64,000 nt of DNA, taken from assembly GCF_022458985.1 (NCBI RefSeq), contig NC_061772.1, positions 31,296,506 to 31,360,505 of the forward strand. Direction: 5' to 3'. Each line of letters begins with the position of its first letter. Positions within the stretch are counted from its first letter, which is position 1. Under the pieces are notes generated by a model that was given only the letters and a program-made list of their open reading frames with translations, was not told the origin of the DNA and did no database searches. A program made the translations under genes and the position numbers. This document shows positions 5,551-63,538 of this stretch, one piece after another. This stretch comes from Mugil cephalus. Its lineage: Eukaryota; Chordata; Actinopteri; Mugiliformes; Mugilidae.

Positions 5551-5558
5551 AAGACCAG

Positions 5559-5766
5559 TTTTAGATCATCTGGTCTTAGATCATCTGGTTTTAGATCATC
5601 TGGTCTTAGATCATCTGGTTTAAGATCATCTGGTTTTAGATCATTTGGTCTTAGATCATCTGGTTTTAGATCATTTGGTCTTAGATCATCTGGTTTTAGA
5701 TCATTTGGTCTTAGATCATCTGGTTTTAGATCATCTAGTTTTAGATCATCTGGTCTTAGATCATCT
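5559..5766 (+). repeat. 15-bp minisatellite
   Basis: About 14 tandem units of TTTTAGATCATCTGG with T/C and C/T variants. The Arg/Ser/Gly and Val/Leu/Asp/His repeat ORFs across it are artefacts of the 15-bp period. Confidence 0.95.
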
Positions 5767-7633: not shown

Positions 7634-10110
7634 ATGGCGGAGAGCGCTGACATGGAGGAGCTTCTCACGGCTTTCAGGAAGTTTGCCGTCCACGGGGACA
7701 CGAAGGCCACGGGGAAGGAGCTGAACGGGAAGAACTGGGCCAAGCTGTGCAAAGACTGCAAGATCATCGACGGCAAGAACGTGACCGGCACCGACGTGGA
7801 CATCGTCTTCTCCAAAGTCAAGTCAGTGCAGAGCTGAAGCTCTTTGGCCTCAGTGTGGGTCAGTGTGTGTCAGTGTGTGTCAGTGTGTGTCAGTGTGTGT
7901 CAGTGTGGGTCAGTGTGTGTCAGTGTGTGTCAGTGTGGGTCAGTGTGGGTCAGTGTGTGTCAGTGTGTGTCAGTGTGGGTCAGTGTGGGTCAGTGTGTGT
8001 CAGTGTGTGTCAGTGTGTGTCAGTGTGGGTCAGTGTGGGTCAGTGTCGGATAGTGTGGGTCAGTGTGGGTCAGAGTGGGTCAGTGTGGGTCAGTGTGCGA
8101 TAGCCATTTGAGTGTGAACCCCGTGTATCTTACCAGGATGTGTCAGTACGTATGGAAGAGGTTTAGTCAGGCTCAGATCTTGTCTCGTCTCGTCTTAACG
8201 TTCGTGGACATAATAACATAATAACGACCTCCAATAAACACGAGACTCAACCATCAGACTCCATCGGTCCTGGGGAGAAGAGGAGGTGGCCTCAGATCAG
8301 ACTCAGTGGTTAAAGTCAGTCGTGGCATCACTGATCTGGGAGGAACCCTCACAGTCTCCTGTTTCAGAGCTTTCCAGACCTCTGACGTAAAACGATATTT
8401 GTGTGTGTGTTGTCTTTGTGTGCAGACAGAAGACGTCTCGAGTCATCACCTACGAGGAGTTTCAGAAAGCTCTGGAGGATCTGGCTCCAAAGAGGTTCAA
8501 GGGCCAGAGCAAAGAGGAGGCGCTGCAGTCCATCTTCAGACTGGTGGAAGGCCGGGAACCCACCAACGTGGGAGTGACGGTGAGACCCGATGCTCTGATC
8601 TAGTTTGACTGAGTTCACGGCCAAGAATGGAAGAATCTCCAGAGTCCAGAGCCGTTTTCAGGTTCAGTAAAACGTGACCAGACCTGCTGCTCACCTTTAA
8701 CATGCTCTCAGTGCTACATCGCCTCTGGCTTCTGTTCACGCCTCAACGCTCAGGCTGGAAACAAGTCCAGAGCTGCTCCACAGACACACAGACCTCTCAC
8801 TCTGCTTCAAAACCATCCGATCATCCAGCCCCAGAGTCTGAGCCCAGAGGGGGGGCGGGTCAGAACCCCTTCAGATCATTAAACACTCCTCAGGCGTCCA
8901 GGGAAACTAATCTGACTGAACCATAACATTTAAATGAAAAGACATCGATTATAGAGATTATGGAAAATCAAACTGTTCCTGAGTCACGATTTTATTCAGG
9001 AATGCTCTGATTCCAACCTCCAAGATGATTGAATGCACTTTAATCTTCTGTGAGCGGGACAGTTTCACATGGATCAGAACACAAAGTCACATCGTGTATC
9101 GGGGTTCGATGCTTCATGTGAAGTTAACCATCCTCAGCTTCAGTTTTATGTTAATAAATGTGGATGGATGGATGTTAGTTGACGTCTACACGGTATAATA
9201 ATATAATATGAGTCCTGATCGCTTAAGAATCATCGTACCGGCATCAGGCTTCAGACAATGTCAGTAATAAACCAAAACCGTGTCCCTGTAGCATCAACAC
9301 TTCTTCTGTTTTAGTGTCAGTCAAAGCTACAAAGTATCAGTGACTGAGGCGTTAGTCTCTAGTGTGGATGTGTGGTAGGAGATCATCTAAACACAATCCA
9401 TGGAGTCACACAGTCAAAGGCTGCAGACAAACAACAACAACATTTAAAAGTAGAGAAAAGTTCCCTGGAGACAGATCTTCCAGAGAGAGTTAGAGAGTTT
9501 ATGGCAGAACATTTCTGGAGTAGAGAACACAAAGTAGGAGCTCCTGCCTCCACATTAACTCTGACTGGAAGAAACATTCACTGGATCCAGTCGGCTGTAG
9601 AAGACAAGGACAGACTCCAGGAATCTACAGGAGACCAACTCTAGGACATTTAACACCAGAGAAGGACGTCCCTACGGGGGACTGAGTCCAGGACATTTAG
9701 GATCAGAAAAACTTGATCGAAATGTCCCTAATAATGATAATAGTGATTTAATAAGGTTTGTTTAAATACAGTTAACTAAACGTTTCCCTTCCACTGCTCT
9801 GACCTTATAAACCAGGTTTCTTTCACACTAGGGTCCAGCCTGGAGCACTCAGGTGTCTCAGCAGGAATCTTCTGACCCCGGTACATTTATGACCAGTCTT
9901 CTGTGTCTCCATCAGAAAGTGGCGAAGACGGCGGCGGTGGACCGTCTGACCGACACGTCCCGTTACACGGGATCACACAAGGAACGGTTCGATGACACCG
10001 GCAAGGGCAAAGGTCGGGAAGGCCGGGAGGAGATCGTGGAGAACACGGGCTACGTTGGAGCGTACAAGAACGCCGGGACGTACGACGCCAAGACCAAGCC
10101 TGAGAAGTAA
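7634..10110 (+). CDS. tppp3: TPPP3-like tubulin polymerization-promoting protein (p25-alpha family)
   Basis: Three coding exons join in frame: 7634-7821, 8426-8579 and 9916-10110 (188+154+195 nt, 178 aa). Donors are AA|GTCAGT and ACG|GTGAGA; acceptors are TGTGTGCAG and TCCATCAG. The ATG lies 13 nt after an acceptor at 7620, so a 5' UTR exon exists upstream. The protein has the p25-alpha hallmarks in order: [21 protein letters not shown] and [13 protein letters not shown] (exon 1), [21 protein letters not shown] (split around residues 68-88, exon 2), [16 protein letters not shown] and [10 protein letters not shown] (residues about 125-175, exon 3). Known family role: binding and bundling of microtubules in the cytosol. 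The short N-terminus, without the extension of TPPP1, and the 178-residue length (vertebrate TPPP3 is about 176) favour TPPP3. A TPPP2-like assignment is less likely. The frame is intact, with no sign of decay. Confidence 0.93.
7852..8103 (+). repeat. 10-bp minisatellite in intron 1 of the TPPP3-like gene
   Basis: About 25 tandem units of TCAGTGTGTG/TCAGTGTGGG begin 30 bp after the exon 1 donor. Cys/Val/Ser/Gln ORFs in three frames are artefacts of the 10-bp period. Confidence 0.97.
8580..9915 (+). other. Intron 2 of the TPPP3-like gene
   Basis: Intron bounded by GTGAGA at 8580 and TCCATCAG at 9908-9915. I see no transposon or conserved element in it. The open stretch at 9372-9644 has no recognisable similarity. 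Confidence 0.7.
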
Positions 10111-24187: not shown

Positions 24188-24414
24188 ATGGACCAGAGTA
24201 GAGAGAAACTGGAGGGACCTGGACCTGGACCTGGACCTGGACCTGGACCTGGACCTGGACCTGAACCTGAACCTGAACCTGGACCTGAACCTGGACCTGG
24301 ACCTGGACCTGGACCTGGACCTGCACCTGAACACAGCTATGTGTCCTTGAAGAGCGACCAGTCGAAGGACAAGGGGATTTATTTTAAAGGAGGAAGTGGT
24401 TCTGGTCCAAAGAG
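24188..24414 (+). CDS. NLR exon 1: N-terminus with (Gly-Pro)n tract
   Basis: The ATG at 24188 opens MDQSREKLE, then 19 hexanucleotide units (24215-24328, GGACCT with GAACCT and GCACCT variants) encode 8 GP, 3 EP, GP, EP, 5 GP and AP. The exon ends [19 protein letters not shown] plus GGSGSGPK and the first two bases of an Arg codon, at donor [18 protein letters not shown] is the recognisable fish-NLR peptide. The start is uncertain, because the frame is open upstream to 24077 and an earlier exon could feed in. Confidence 0.7.
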
Positions 24415-27400
24415 GTAAAGTGTCAGTGAAGCTGTAACATGTAAAGTAACATGTCTTGGTGGAGATTATTTGTTTTGGTAATGGGCACCAGGACAGACTG
24501 CTTCCATAAAGATGGCACCTTCTACACAAGAGACATGTTAAAAATAAAGTTAAAAATATGACCAATCTGCTCATCACAACCACTAATATGATCAGCTCCA
24601 GGGCTTTTCCTTGGTTTACTCTTCTTAAAACACTTAAAACAGGGCGGGAGCAAACAGAGATGCAGGAAGAGGACATTGTTTGAGTGTTTTGAAGCTATAA
24701 ACTAAATGAACTTGTCTGTTGAAGAGTAATCAGCGTTGTGTCTCTGGAAGCTGTTGAACCTTAGAAAAACATGAATATTTGTTTCTTGTGTTCATAGCAG
24801 TAGTTGGGGAAACACAGCCTTAGAAGAGATGATCAATAAGGGGATATTTGAAGCAGAGTAGTGTCTTCAATCTTGTAATGGATGAGAGCTAATTGTTGAT
24901 GGTTGGTCCACAGAGTCCACCAGCAGAGCTCAGAGGTTCTCAGTGGTCAGTCTACCCAGCAGCATCAGAAACAGCTGGACTCCATCTTTCTGGTCTGTAC
25001 ATGTACAACAACTACTTTGCTCTTTGTAGACCAGTGGATTGTCAGTGTGTCCAACATGGATCTGATGTTTTTTCTCCATGGTTTCAGTCTGCTTGTGTCA
25101 TTCATATTGTCTTCTGTTCCAGCTGCTGGAGGACAACATCATCACTTTTATAAAAAACGAGCTAAAGAAGATCCAGAAGGTTGTGAGTCCAGATTACCCA
25201 GAATGCTCAGAGAGTCAGAGGGAGGATGAGGAGGTGTTGGAGGGTGAGGATGAAGAGCAGAGGAGGAGCAGCAGAGATTTATTAGTGAAGATGACAGCGA
25301 ACTTCCTGAGGAGAATGAAGCAGGAGGAGCTGGCTGACTGTCTGCAGAGCAGTAAGAGGATTTCTCTAAACATTGAAGCTGCTGGAGAAATGAGACATTT
25401 AATAACGTCTCAAGAGATGAACCAAGATATATTCACACACTCATTCTTTAGAGCAACGACATGTTGGAATATTTACTGGAGAGTTTATTCATTCATCTTA
25501 TTTGTTGTTTCTTCATTCAGGACATTTTGCTCCAGTTTGTCAACGTAAAGTTAAATCTTCTCTGAAGGATAAGTTCCAGCGTGTGTTTGAGGGGATTGCT
25601 AAAGCTGGAAACTCAACCCTTCTGAATGAGATCTACACAGAGCTCTACATCACAGAGGGAGGGACTGCAGAGGTCAATGATGAACATGAGGTCAGACGGA
25701 TTGAAACAGCATCCAGGAAACCACACAGACCAGAAACAAGCATCAGACAAGAAGAACTCTTTAAAGCCTCACCTGGAAGACATGGACCAATCAGAAGAGT
25801 GATGACAAAGGGAGTGGCTGGCATTGGGAAAACAGTCTTAACACAGAAGTTCACTCTGGACTGGGCTGAAGACAAAGCCAACCAGGACATCCTCTTCATA
25901 TTTCCATTGACTTTCAGAGAGCTGAATGTGGTGAAAGAGAGAAAGTTCAGCTTGGTGGAACTTGTTCATTACTTCTTCACCGAAACCAAAGAAGCAGGAA
26001 TCTGCAGCTTTGAAGACTTCCAGGTTGTGTTCATCTTTGACGGTCTGGATGACTGTCGACTTCCTCTGGACTTCCACAAGACTGAGGTCCTGACTGATGT
26101 TACAGAGTCCACCTCAGTGGATGTGCTGCTGACAAACCTCATCAGGGGGAAACTGCTTCCCTCTGCTCGCCTCTGGATAACCACACGACCTGCAGCGGCC
26201 AATCAGATCCCTCCTGAGTGTGTTGACATGGTGACAGAGGTCAGAGGGTTCACTGACCCCCAGAAGGAGGAGTACTTCAGGAAGAGGTTCAGAGATGAGG
26301 AGCAGGCCAGCAGCATCATCTCCCACATCAAGACATCACGAAGCCTCCACATCATGTGTCACATCCCAGTCTTCTGCTGGATCACTGCTACAGTTCTGGA
26401 GGATGAGTTGGAAACCAGAGAGGGAGGAGAGCTGCCCAAGACCCTGACTGAGATGTACATCCACTTCCTGGTGGTTCAGGCCAAAGTCAAGAAGGTCAAG
26501 TATGATGGAGGAGCTGAGACAGATCCACACTGGGATAAAAAGAGCAGGAAGATGATTGAGTCTCTGGGAAAACTGGCTTTTGATCAGCTGCTGAAAGGAA
26601 ACCTGATCTTCTATGAATCAGACCTGACAGAGTGTGGCATTGATATCAGAGCAGCCTCAGTGTACTCAGGAGTGCTGACACAGATCTTTAAAGAGGAGAG
26701 AGGCCTGTACCAGGACAAGGTGTTCTGCTTCGTCCATCTGAGCGTTCAGGAGTTTCTGGCTGCAGTCTACATGATCCACTGTTACACCAACAGGAAGACA
26801 GAGGAGCTGCAGGACTTCCTGAAAGAAAACTACAATAACTCACCTCTGGATGAGTTTCTGAACGGAGTCATGATTAAATCCCTGGAGAGTAAAAATGGTC
26901 ACCTGGACCTGTTAGTTCGCTTCCTTCATGGCGTCTCTCTGGAGTCCAACCAGAGACTCTTAGGAGGTCTGCTGGGTCAGACAGGGAACAGTCCAGAAAT
27001 CATCCAGAGAACCATCAACAAGCTGAAGAAGATGAACACTGGTAAAATGTCTCCTGACAGAAGCATCAACATCTTCCACTGTCTGATGGAGATGAACGAC
27101 CTCTCAGTTCATCAGAAGATCCAAGAGTTCCTGAAGTCAAGGAACAGATCAGAGGAACTCTCTGAGATCCACTGCTCAGCTCTGGCCTACATGCTGCAGA
27201 TGTCAGAGGAGGTTCTGGATGAGTTGGACCTGGAGGACTACAACACATCAATGGAGGGACGATGGAGACTGATCCCAGCTGTGAGGAACTGCAGAAAGGC
27301 TCGGTGAGTCCTGATCAATAACAGAATCAATCAGTGGAGATTAGTAGTTTAGTTCTTCAGACGTTCTCATTCTTCTTCAGTGTTCCACTTGTTCTCGGCA

Positions 27401-50948: not shown

Positions 50949-52502
50949 ATGGGTGATGTCAAAACTCTCGTCCAAGAAATATTTTCTTGGCTGAAGCTGC
51001 AGGAAGAAAGTGCAGAGAAGTTGAAGAACCTGGCCAATGAGATGGAAGAACGTCAGAAAGCCATTAATGTCACTAAAGTTGTGGGGAGCTCTGTCTCTGT
51101 AGGTGGTGCAGCTGCCCTGACAGTAGCAGGGATATCAGTCCTCACAGGAGGAGCAGCAATACCTTTTATAGGCGCAGCAGCAACAGTAGCATCAGTGGCT
51201 GGTGTGGCTACCAACATCACCTCTGATCTCGTTGGTGCCGCTAAATCAAGTGACACCATGAAAGAGGCAGATAAGATTTCAGAGAAGATGGAAGATCTTA
51301 AGAAGAAGATTCAAGAACTTGTGAAGTCACTGAGAGAGGAGTGGCTGAAGAAAGAAAAACAGGAACCAGGAACCTCTCCAGAAGATTATGTTATCAGAGA
51401 AATTGTGAAAGAAATAGCAAGACTCAACAAATTTAAAATGGATGATGATTTAGACAACGAGATGTTTGGGAAGAATGCTGGTGACAGTCTTATGAAGGGG
51501 TCTATACTGGATTTCCCACAGCTTTCAAACTTCATTACAGCTATTACAGCTGAAATAGCAGATGAAGAATTGAAAGCTGCAACCACAGCTGCAATGAGAG
51601 CTGGAGCAGTAGTCACAATGAACGTCATAGGGAGAGGTGCAGAATATGCAATAAAATCTGCAGGCAAAGAAGCAGCGGAACATGCAGTAAAAGTTACTGC
51701 TGCAAGAGCTGCAGTAAAAGCTGCAGCCATACCAGCAACTGAACAAGCAGCAAGAGCTGCAGCCAAACAGGCAGCTGAAGAAGCAGCAAAAGCTGCTGTA
51801 GCAAAAGCTGCAGCTGAACAAACAGCAAGAGCTGCTGCAGCACAAGCAGTAAGCATGCAGTTGGCTGAAGAAGCAGCCGAACAGGCAGCAAAAGCTGCTG
51901 TAGCAAAGGCTGCAGCAGCAAAAGCTGCAGCTGCTGCTGCAGCAAAAGCAGGTGCAGCCAGAGCTACAGCCAAACAAGCAGCGAACCAGGCAGCACAAGC
52001 TGCTGCAGCCAAAGCTGCAGCTAAAGCGACAGCTAAAGCAGCTGGACATGTAAGTATCAATTACATCAAGAGGTGATACCAGTAAGTTATGTTATTTAAA
52101 TGTTTGATCGCAGGTTAACAACCACATTCATCAGTGGTACCCAGCATGGTCCTGGGAGGATAAGAGAGGTTAGCATAGGTTAGCATATGTCAGTGGGATA
52201 AGATGTTCAGTATGTCAAACATCAAGTGTAAAGTCACCACACCATTAAAAATGTCCTCGTCCAGGTGGATAATGTGTCCTTCTTTGCTCTATTCAGGCTC
52301 TTGGTGGAGTGATTGGACTCGCGTTTACGGTTCCTGAGCTGATTATCAACTGTAAAGATCTGGACAAATGTGACACGAATGCCAGTAGGATCCTGAGAGA
52401 GAACGCCAAAGCTATCCTGACTATTGTTAAACAGATCAGGGAAGAACTGGATGAAATGCAGTGAGTATGAATACAACAGTATTCACAATGAAAAGAGGCA
52501 GG

Positions 52503-52568
<66 letters not shown>

Positions 52569-52736
52569 CTTTTTTAGGTTTTCTCTCCTTATTCTGAGAT
52601 AAAGTAGCTGTGCTGAACTGAAACGCCTCACTTTAAAATGATTTAATAGAGCAGATTATATCAGTAATATTGCTTGTTTTTTGTTCTTCACAGGAAAATG
52701 TTTCGGCGTTTAGCTGCGAAAAAGAAAGAGAAGTGA
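50949..52736 (+). CDS. Apolipoprotein L-like protein with alanine-rich domain (copy 1)
   Basis: Coding exons 50949-52049, 52297-52460 and 52694-52736 join in frame (1101+164+43 nt, 435 aa). The ATG is 18 nt after the acceptor TTTGTTTTAG at 50930, so a 5' UTR exon lies upstream. Residues 1-40 are amphipathic helix. Residues 45-98 form a Gly/Ala-rich hydrophobic hairpin (SVGGAAALTVAGISVLTGGA, IPFIGAAATVASVAGVATNI), the APOL pore-forming signature. A coiled, charged part (105-160) follows. Residues 241-365 are Ala-rich with Lys, Gln, Glu and Arg (KAAVAKAAAEQTARAAAAQA). Exon 2 gives ALGGVIGLAFTVPELI, CKDLDKCDTNASRILRENA and REELDEMQ, like the APOL C-terminal helices. The end is basic (RRLAAKKKEK). 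There is no signal peptide, so it is probably intracellular. Known relatives insert in membranes and shift ions. The alanine tract is unusual for the family. Confidence 0.85.
52505..52564. repeat. (TA)30 microsatellite in intron 2 of ApoL copy 1
   Basis: Uninterrupted TA run directly after the exon 2 donor region. Absent from the equivalent intron of copy 2. Confidence 0.97.
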
Positions 52737-54114: not shown

Positions 54115-55812
54115 AAAACTCTCCATAAGATTAGAACAGCATATTATTCTTCATTAATAGAAGAAAACAAGAACAACCCCAGATTTCTTTTCAGCTGTAG
54201 CCAGGCTGACAAAGAGTCACAGCTCTGTTGAGCATCTATTCCTTCAGCCCTCAGCAGTAATGACTTCATGAGCTTCTTTACTGATAAAATTGTTGCATTA
54301 GAGATAAAATTCATAGCACCCTTCCATCTGTCAAAGATGTAAGTACAGTGGCATTAGAAACCTCTGTAGGACCGAGTCAGTATTTGGATTCTTTCTCCCT
54401 AATTGATCTTCCTGAGCTCACTTCAGTTATTACAGCATCTAAACCATCAACTTGTCTTCTAGACCCCATCACAACTAAGTTGCTCAAGGAGGTTTTTCCA
54501 TTAATTAATACCTCCATATAAAATCAGATAAACTTGTCTTTATTAACAGGATATGTGCCCCAGTCTTTTAAAACTGCTGTAATTAAACCATTACTTAAAA
54601 AACCCACAGCTCTAGTTAAAGTAACCAATGATCTCCTCATGGCTTCAGACGATGGACTTGTCTCTATACTTGTCCTGCTAGATCTCAGTGCTGCATTTGA
54701 CACTATTGATCACAATATATTACTACAGAGACTTGAAAGTGTGATCAAGATTACAGGAACTGCACTAGACTGGTTTAAATCGTATCTGTCAGACAGATTC
54801 CAGTTTGTCCATGTAAACAACAACTCTTCTATATATACCAAAGTAAGCTATGGAGTTCCTCAGGGTTCTGTGCTAGGACCAATATTATTCACATTATACA
54901 TGCTTCCCTTAGGCAATATTATTAGAAAGCACGGCATAAACTTCCATTGCTATGCAGATGATACCCAGCTATATTTATCCATGAAACCAGATGAAACTAA
55001 TCAGCTGGTTAAACTCCAAGCACCTTAAAGACATAAAGGCTTGGATGACCTGTAATTTTCTACTTTTAAACTCAGACAAAACAGAAGTTATCGTATTTGG
55101 CTCTAAACATGTCAGAGATTCATTATCTAATCACCTGCTTTTGTTGGATGGCGTTACCTTGGCCTCCAGTGCTACTGTGAAAAACCTTGGTGTTATATTT
55201 GACCAGGATATGTCCTTTAATTCTCACATAAAGCAGGTGACCAGGACTGCTTTCTTTCACCTTCGTAATATCATCAACATTAGGAACATCCTTTCTCAGA
55301 GTGATGCGGAAAAACTAGTTGATGCATTTGTGTCTTCCAGGCTGGATTATTGTAACTCGTTACTGTCTGGCTCCAAATACTCTTTAAAAAGCCTCCAACT
55401 GATTCAAAACGCTGCAGCAAGAGCACTGACAGGAATTAGCAAGAGAGATCATATTACTCCAGTATTAGCTTCTCTTCATTGGCACCCTTTAAAATCTAGA
55501 ATTGAATTTAAAATCCTCCTCCTTATCTTATCATTTTATTTTCTATCTCTTATAATTTACTAACCACTGTGTCTCCCTCTCTTATCTTGTTTCTCCTGTT
55601 CTTCTTCTCTCTCTATCTTCTCTGGTTCTACCCGGCTGGTCTTCAGCAGATGGTTCCTCTATATGAGCTGGTTCTGCTCCTGGTTTCTTCCTGTTAAAGG
55701 GAGTTTTTCCCTCAGGCTGCTCTGGAGGTTTCAGGCTGGTTTTTGTGAAGCGCCATGAGACGATTTGTGTTGTTATTGGCGCTATATAAATAAAACTGAA
55801 TAGAATTGAATA
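54115..55812 (+). mobile_element. L2/Maui-type LINE
   Basis: The plus strand carries [78 protein letters not shown] with [47 protein letters not shown] and RALTGISKRDHI. The 3' tail is TTGGCGCTATATAAATAAAA, then CTGAATAGAATTGAA. Two long open pieces overlap around 54991-55028, so a small frame change, an internal deletion near 54600 and a 5' truncation inactivate it. It is the best preserved L2 here. Confidence 0.92.
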
Positions 55813-62147: not shown

Positions 62148-63538
62148 ATGGGTGATGTCAAAACTCTCGTCCAAGAAATATTCTCTTGGCTGAAACTGCA
62201 GGAAGAAAGTGCAAAGAAGTTGGAGAACCTGGCCAATGAGATGGAAGAACGTCAGAAAGCCATTAATGTCACTAAAGTTGTAGGGAGCTCTGTCTCTGTA
62301 GGTGGTGCAGCTGCCCTGACAGTAGCAGGGATAACATTCCTCACAGGAGGAGCAGCAATACCTTTTATAGGTGCAGCAGCAACAGTAGCATCAGTGGCTG
62401 GTTTGGCTACAAACGTTACCTCTGATATCGTTGGTGCCGTTAAATCAAAGAACACCATGGAAGAGGCAGAGGAGATTACAAAGAAGATGGAAGATCTTAA
62501 GAAGAAGATTCAAGAACTTGTGAAGTCACTGAGAGAGGAGTGGCTGAAGAAAGAAAAACAGGAACCAGGAACTTCTCCAGAAGATTATGTTATCAGAGAA
62601 ATTGTGAAAGAAATAGCAAGACTCAACGGATTTAAAATGGATGATGATTTGTACAAGAAGATGTCTAGAAAAAAGCCTGGTGACAATCTTCTCAACAGGA
62701 TCGATTTCCCCATGCTTTCAAACTTCATTCTCACTATTGCAGTTGAAATAGCAGATGAAGAACTGAGAGCTGCCAAGATAGCTGCAGCAGATCTCGCAGC
62801 GAAGGCCATAGAGAAAGGTGCAGAAGAAGCCACAACAAGATACGTAATGAAAGAAGCAGCAAAGGTTGCAACGACAGCTGCTGTGGCAAAAACTGCTGCA
62901 GAAGAAGCTGCAAAAGCTGCAACAAAAGCTGGTCTGGAAGGATCAGTTAAAGTTATAACAGCAAAAGTCACAGGAGGAGAAGCAGCTAAGCTTATTATAG
63001 CAAAAGCCACAGCAGAAGAGGCAGCAAAGGTTGTAGCAGCCAGAGCTGCAGCCAAACAGGCAGCAGAACAGGCAGCAAAAGCTGCTGCAGCCAAAGCTGC
63101 AGCTAAAGCTACAGCTAAAGCTGCTGGACGTGTGAGTATCAACCACATTAACAGGTGATATCAGGGAGTTATGTCTTTTAAATGAAAAATGTCCTCGTCC
63201 AGATGGATAATGTGTCCTTCTTTGCTCTGTTCAGGCTCTTGGTGGAGCGATTGGACTCGTGTTTACGGTTCCTGAGCTGATTGGCAACTGTAAAGATCTG
63301 GACAAATGTGACACAAAAGCCAGTAAATTCCTGAGAGAGAACGCCAGCGCCATCCAGACAACTGCTAAACAGCTGAGAGGAGAACTGGACGAAATGCAGT
63401 GAGTCTCAATACAACATTATTCACAATGAAAAGAGATGAGATTTTTTTTAAATGCTATAATAGAGCAGATTATATCAGTAATATTGCTTGTTTTTTGTTC
63501 TTCACAGGAAAATGTTTGGTGGGTTAGCTGCAGTTTAA
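62148..63538 (+). CDS. Apolipoprotein L-like protein with alanine-rich domain (copy 2)
   Basis: Coding exons 62148-63131, 63235-63398 and 63508-63538 (984+164+31 nt, 392 aa) with the same phases as copy 1. The ATG again lies 18 nt after an acceptor (TTTGTTTTAG at 62129). The first ~150 residues are almost identical to copy 1: amphipathic N-terminus, Gly/Ala hydrophobic hairpin (GGAAALTVAGITFLTGGAAI) and a charged coiled part. The alanine-rich region (about 205-326) is shorter and more varied (AAKVATTAAVAKTAAEEAAK; AARAAAKQAAEQAAKAAAAK). Exon 2 keeps the APOL-like helices (ALGGAIGLVFTVPELIGN, DLDKCDTKASKFLREN, LRGELDEMQ). The C-terminus is KMFGGLAAV, without the lysine tail of copy 1. The upstream ISRE/TATA promoter suggests interferon induction. 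The function (membrane insertion, antimicrobial or ion-channel role) is inferred from the APOL family. Confidence 0.85.

Follow-up and report, generated by a model that had tools for sequence, protein, structure and literature searches.

Introduction

The ApoL proteins act in innate immunity as channel-forming effectors. In human APOL1, according to the available text of PMC8446801, a membrane-insertion domain occupies residues 176-228, a pore-lining helix residues 335-356, and a leucine zipper required for the open channel residues 368-395. Structures of the APOL1 N-domain are described in the accessible part of PMC8316464, and a gain in ApoL copy number in freshwater stickleback in that of PMC4159527. 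Here we describe a pair of ApoL-type genes of Mugil cephalus, g1 and g2, in which a long alanine-rich tract lies between the hydrophobic hairpin and a C-terminal helix exon.

Domain II of E. coli K-12 TolA is a long helical spacer. Single alpha-helix (ER/K) domains are water-exposed helices whose polar residues are spaced i,i+4. In other work, fish type I antifreeze proteins other than that of flounder were derived from further genes. The flounder protein is reported to originate from Gig2 (PMC9122973, available part), and alanine codon bias unlike that of the same fish's other genes is reported for such proteins in PMC3855684.

The g1 tract and TolA domain II have the same alanine content (56%), and both are charged and long; their polar residues peak at different periods (4.25 in the tract, 5.28 in TolA), and no homology is claimed. 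With the ER/K domains the tract shares the idea of a water-exposed helix with i,i+4 polar residues, but it has alanine instead of dense charge, and its like-charge pairs are raised too. Like the antifreeze protein HPLC6 (1wfa) it is probably an alanine-rich helix (71 of 126 residues are Ala in g1; the structure model is of low confidence), but its polar period is 4.25, not an 11-residue Thr repeat, and it is part of a larger protein. With the ApoL family the two genes share a hairpin scoring above the Pfam cut-off, a C-terminal helix exon and an arrangement in tandem clusters. They differ from it by the alanine-rich arm of 126-163 residues, by a partial profile match, by a C-terminal exon in which no homology to the usual end of ApoL could be detected, and by a long branch in the tree. 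Its pattern fits neither a helix lying on the membrane nor an antifreeze helix, so the tract seems to be a modest, if unusual, departure within an already known gene family. The alanine-armed subfamily offers a natural test of how much separation between hairpin and C-terminal helix is tolerated. It also presents an alanine-rich helix growing within an immune-type gene. Such events have been discussed as the way in which fish antifreeze proteins arose, but the antifreeze pattern is absent here.

Two ApoL-type genes in tandem

The window, that is the whole stretch of 64,000 nucleotides analysed, contains g1 at 50949-52736 on the plus strand, with three coding exons encoding 435 amino acids. The main coding exon (50949-52049) carries the start codon, the hydrophobic Gly/Ala hairpin (amino acids ~44-98, 51078-51242), a charged helix and the alanine-rich tract; its open frame ends at a GTAAGT donor at 52050, one residue past the end of the tract. 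A phase-0 join leads to the C-terminal helix exon (52297-52460), and the last coding exon with the stop codon (52694-52736) was placed by its acceptor and frame. Since the tract shares an exon with the start codon and the hairpin, skipping of that exon could not remove the tract alone. Directly 5' of the start codon there is an AG acceptor-like sequence, the same in g1 and g2, which makes a further non-coding exon upstream probable in both genes.

The Pfam ApoL profile PF05461 matched amino acids 19-165 of g1 with 29.9 bits (query amino acids 1-236; cut-off 25.9), a match that includes the hairpin and spans only profile positions 65-205 of 298. When the whole 435-residue protein was used as query, no ApoL row appeared at E<=1, perhaps an effect of composition. 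Against solved structures the N-terminal part gave two weak matches (E 0.7), neither of them an ApoL. By analogy with APOL1, as described in the available part of PMC8446801, the hairpin probably corresponds to the hairpin with which ApoL inserts into membranes. An earlier note, made from the sequence of g1, had proposed this start, these exon borders, the length of 435 residues, a tract at about amino acids 241-366 and a hairpin domain of ApoL type, and all of these were confirmed, the last by the profile score above cut-off.

A second open paralog, g2, absent from that note, was found at 62148-63538 on the same strand. It encodes 392 amino acids in the exon layout of g1: a main coding exon with an open frame (62148-63131; ApoL profile 36.5 bits on amino acids 1-201), a C-terminal helix exon (63235-63398) and a last coding exon with the stop codon (63508-63538). 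Its tract (amino acids 202-327, 62751-63128) was recognized by composition and period. A third copy, rearranged and partly inverted, lies beyond the window at C3:31363290-31364468. Its hairpin piece was matched with one internal stop, the tract is mostly lost, and the frame stops in the remnant.

A genome search with the N-terminal part of g1 yielded three further relatives on C20, at 12.045, 12.051 and 12.061 Mb. These are the nearest paralogs, and they have a similar C-terminal exon without the tract. By Pfam they are weaker ApoLs: the two that were scanned, C20A (25.0 bits) and C20B (19.2 bits), score below the PF05461 cut-off of 25.9 bits. A tree was built from 25 selected rows. The three C20 genes grouped there with g1 and g2, with support 100/100 against the remaining 20 rows; the branch leading to this group has length 2.21, and the program warns that long branches meet at this point. 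The pairing of g1 with g2 had support 99/99.

Composition and growth of the alanine-rich tract

The g1 tract (amino acids 241-366, 51669-52046) comprises 126 residues: 71 Ala, 13 Lys, 9 Glu, 9 Gln, 6 Val, 5 Thr, 4 Arg and 9 others. This core agrees with the tract of about 125 residues with Lys, Gln, Glu and Arg that had been noticed before. The alanine-rich region of g1 in fact begins near amino acid 204 and is then 163 residues long (51558-52046), as delimited by composition, period and tandem arrays. The g2 tract, also of 126 residues, is homologous and less pure (41% Ala). In the final 31 tract residues g1 and g2 have three differences, and the remaining tract is diverged. Because of its extreme composition, its open frame in two diverged copies and its periodic polar spacing, the tract is not a product of chance, and it is likely, judging from the two sequences, to be translated.

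The tract appears to be confined to these two genes. When the genome was searched with PF05461, 27 places were found, among them g1 (28.2 bits) and g2 (34.4 bits). The alanine fraction of the best 60 residues was 0.65 in g1, 0.47 in g2 and at most 0.28 in the other 25 ORFs at these places, several of which are exon pieces that may miss the tract position and so do not stand for 25 whole genes. With the same reservation the tract is present in 2 of the 27 ApoL-profile ORFs, and in 2 of the 5 readable genes of the subfamily (the broken sixth copy excluded), which upholds the earlier idea of a local extension of the ApoL module. In a loose first look with the g1 tract as protein query the genome returned g1 and g2 only (2 matches at E<=1, 4 candidates scored). 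No Pfam family matched either tract at E<=0.5, and no solved structure matched the g1 tract at E<=1. Literature searches on apolipoprotein L with alanine-rich or antifreeze, in teleosts, and on the APOL family in fish gave no described tract among the matches listed, in the open-licence subset and the text it offers.

Tandem arrays occupy both tracts, with units including 51 and 102 bp in g1 (51747-52025) and 39 and 51 bp in g2 (62949-63124), which points to growth by unequal duplication. The alanine codons of the g1 tract (36 GCA, 26 GCT, 6 GCC and 3 GCG of 71) match those used elsewhere in the gene (18 GCA and 13 GCT of 39), and growth from the gene's own sequence is therefore favoured. The phase-0 donor at which the tract ends is also possessed by tract-less C20A. 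On sequence grounds the tract is best described as an insertion that grew by repeats and separates the hairpin from the conserved C-terminal helix exon.

Minisatellites also occur in the first part of the window, at 2007-2235, 5558-5766, 7850-8097 and 24215-24329, with units of 17, 15, 10 and 6 bp, respectively.

Polar spacing and predicted structure

Polar residues (KREDQNH) of the g1 tract recur at lags of 4, 8, 13, 17, 21, 25, 30 and 34, and those of g2 at nearly the same lags. The spectral peak lay at 4.26 residues for g1 241-366 (power 20.3), at 4.25 for g1 204-366 (16.5) and at 4.23 for g2 (19.2), and in neither tract did any of 200 shuffles reach it. Among the controls, HPLC6 had a Thr/aliphatic peak at 11.15 (7/200 shuffles as high) and a polar peak at 5.28 that was not significant (76/200), TolA domain II a polar peak at 5.28 (0/200), and amino acids 102-160 of g1 an aliphatic peak at 3.49 (1/200) and a polar one at 3.50 (43/200). 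The spacing of ~4.25 differs from heptads, from 3.6-residue amphipathic helices and from the 11-residue antifreeze repeat. On a helix of 100 degrees per residue such spacing implies a polar stripe that winds around the rod: the polar resultant over the whole tract was 0.05-0.06 at 100 degrees, compared with 0.55 for HPLC6, and 0.04-0.24 at the other angles tried. Charge pairs at i,i+4 in g1 were raised for both opposite charge (7 vs 2.4 expected) and like charge (6 vs 2.6). A polar period of 4.25 is unusual for a helix; should other species share it, it would have to be explained in structural terms.

AlphaFold modelling of g1 (5 rows), which had been suggested for the tract, drew helices at 242-259 and 263-366, but the mean pLDDT was only 48. 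Nearly all residues of 160-300 were below 50; in the tract, block pLDDT was below 50 to residue 300 and 53-83 over 301-367. An alpha-helix rises 1.5 A per residue, and the longer helix of the model would measure about 16 nm.

The C-terminal helix exon

The C-terminal exon is conserved across the five genes (g1, g2 and the three C20 genes), with 50% identity between g1 and tract-less C20A across 52 amino acids. Residues 386-430 of g1 have a period of 3.54-3.56 (shuffles as high: 6/200 for polar, 21/200 for aliphatic residues). The exon was at first taken for the pore-lining and zipper helices of ApoL, an assignment that profile comparison did not support. PF05461 did not match the exon in any of the five members at E<=5, and when six usual ApoL ends from the same genome were compared with it by hhalign, the probability was 11.8% over 17 columns. 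The claim of an APOL-type C-terminal helix in the earlier note is thus only partly borne out: the exon is conserved and helix-like, but profile comparison lends no support to its kinship with the ApoL end. By position and looks the exon may still be equivalent to the ApoL end: the tract follows the putative counterpart of the insertion domain and precedes a helix exon placed like the pore-lining helix and zipper. The lack of detectable homology weakens the analogy to the ApoL channel.

Divergence between the two tracts

When the tracts of g1 and g2 were aligned over 126 codons, 129 of 378 nucleotides differed. Identical residues numbered 70 of 126, compared with ~51 expected without constraint at equal nucleotide divergence (0/3000 simulations as high), an excess that is moderate evidence, as the choice of alignment favours identity. 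The probability that neither tract would contain a stop was 0.034-0.036, and ranged from 0.0035 to 0.349 under other mutation settings. Two candidate proofs of selection were rejected. Retention of the polar class was reproduced by the neutral model (18 polar/nonpolar changes, compared with 20.0 and 21.4), and phase-breaking changes were not significantly few (4 vs 7.0 and 8.1 expected; 602 and 290 of 4000 simulations as low). When 34% of the bases were changed at random, the period power of g1, initially 16.5, fell to 6.5 on average (5-95% 2.9-12.0), compared with 19.2 in g2; this result was not counted as proof of selection, as its meaning depends on the period power of the ancestor.

Synonymous divergence (Nei-Gojobori dS) rose from 0.118 in the N-terminal part to 0.67-0.68 in the tract, with 0.262 for the last exons. 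The 5' part may have undergone gene conversion, or the tract may be misaligned. The dN/dS of the tract, 0.62-0.64, rests on the same uncertain alignment. The best reading of these comparisons is that the arm is weakly constrained and that selection on its period pattern is not demonstrated.

Possible roles of the tract

We tentatively favour the following reading. The two genes would encode membrane-active proteins of ApoL type, probably cytosolic (no leader was recognized by eye), in which the Ala/Lys/Glu/Gln segment that links the hairpin to the C-terminal helix exon has expanded by in-frame unequal duplication, in units including 13, 17 and 34 codons. The expanded segment would be a soluble spacer arm, alpha-helical and largely uninterrupted over ~100 residues or more, and increase the distance between hairpin and C-terminal helix, the latter possibly doing the work of the pore-lining and zipper part of ApoL. 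Because polar residues placed every 4.25 would wind round the helix and leave no single greasy face, the arm is expected in water, not on membrane or ice. A bolder version, which we regard as a long shot, supposes that selection has designed the 17/4 polar spacing. A stiff helix of 15-25 nm, exposed to water, would part the hairpin from the C-terminal module, and one molecule could with it span two membranes or a microbial or organellar envelope. No such stalked ApoL was met in the literature and database searches made.

A close rival of the soluble spacer, and one we consider quite possible, is a tolerated repeat expansion without a role, a filler free to lengthen or shorten since the end of the exon can bear change. 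Neutral simulation accounts for the polar-class retention and for the number of phase-breaking changes, dS in the tract is several times that of the N-terminal part, and the third copy has lost most of its tract; against this, residue identity exceeds the neutral expectation, no stop interrupts either open copy, and 126-163 codons were retained in both. Less likely than either is the main idea of the earlier note, an amphipathic helix lying on the membrane and widening the pore-forming module. The net charge of +8 in each tract would suit it, and so would the local polar resultant over 18 residues (0.34-0.40), which is in the range of other g1 helices (0.30-0.42) and of HPLC6 (0.36). However, the mean 18-residue hydrophobic moment does not rise above shuffles (g1 0.173 vs a shuffle mean of 0.191, 360/500 as high; g2 0.21 vs 0.192, 136/500), and over the whole tract the polar resultant at 100 degrees all but vanishes. 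We consider this helix improbable, and assign about the same low standing to self-association, in which the alanine-rich arms of at least two molecules would pack and drive oligomers. Small alanine faces can pack closely. Zipper-mediated oligomerisation is reported for APOL1 in the accessible part of PMC8446801, but known coiled coils have periods of 3.5 or 3.67, a long way from 4.25, and at 3.5-3.67 the polar power of the tracts is 1.0-2.9 as against 16.5-20.3 at the peak.

The antifreeze reading, which had also been envisaged, takes the tract as a helix that binds ice or as the direct raw material of a type I antifreeze protein; it is very unlikely indeed. The alanine content approaches that of HPLC6 (56% vs 62%), GCA makes up 51% of the tract's alanine codons, a lead resembling the main codon of the sculpin antifreeze protein (PMC3855684, available part), and Gig2, from which the flounder protein was derived (PMC9122973, in the text available), is another immune gene. 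But the 11-residue period is absent (polar autocorrelation at lag 11 is -0.34 in g1) and Thr is found at only 5 of 126 positions; moreover, alanine codons are used no differently elsewhere in the gene, and the loose first look matched the tract to no third place in the genome. The soluble spacer thus keeps its tentative lead, with the functionless expansion close to it.

Surroundings of the gene pair

Long ORFs on the minus strand run across both tracts; they were considered as genes and set aside, as by eye they look like mirror frames of the composition. Between g1 and g2 there is a reverse transcriptase fragment (RVT_1, 54534-55025). About 24 kb before the ApoL pair, at 25502-27304, lies a piece of an NLR-type gene with FISNA, NACHT, NOD2_WH and NLRC4_HD2 domains.
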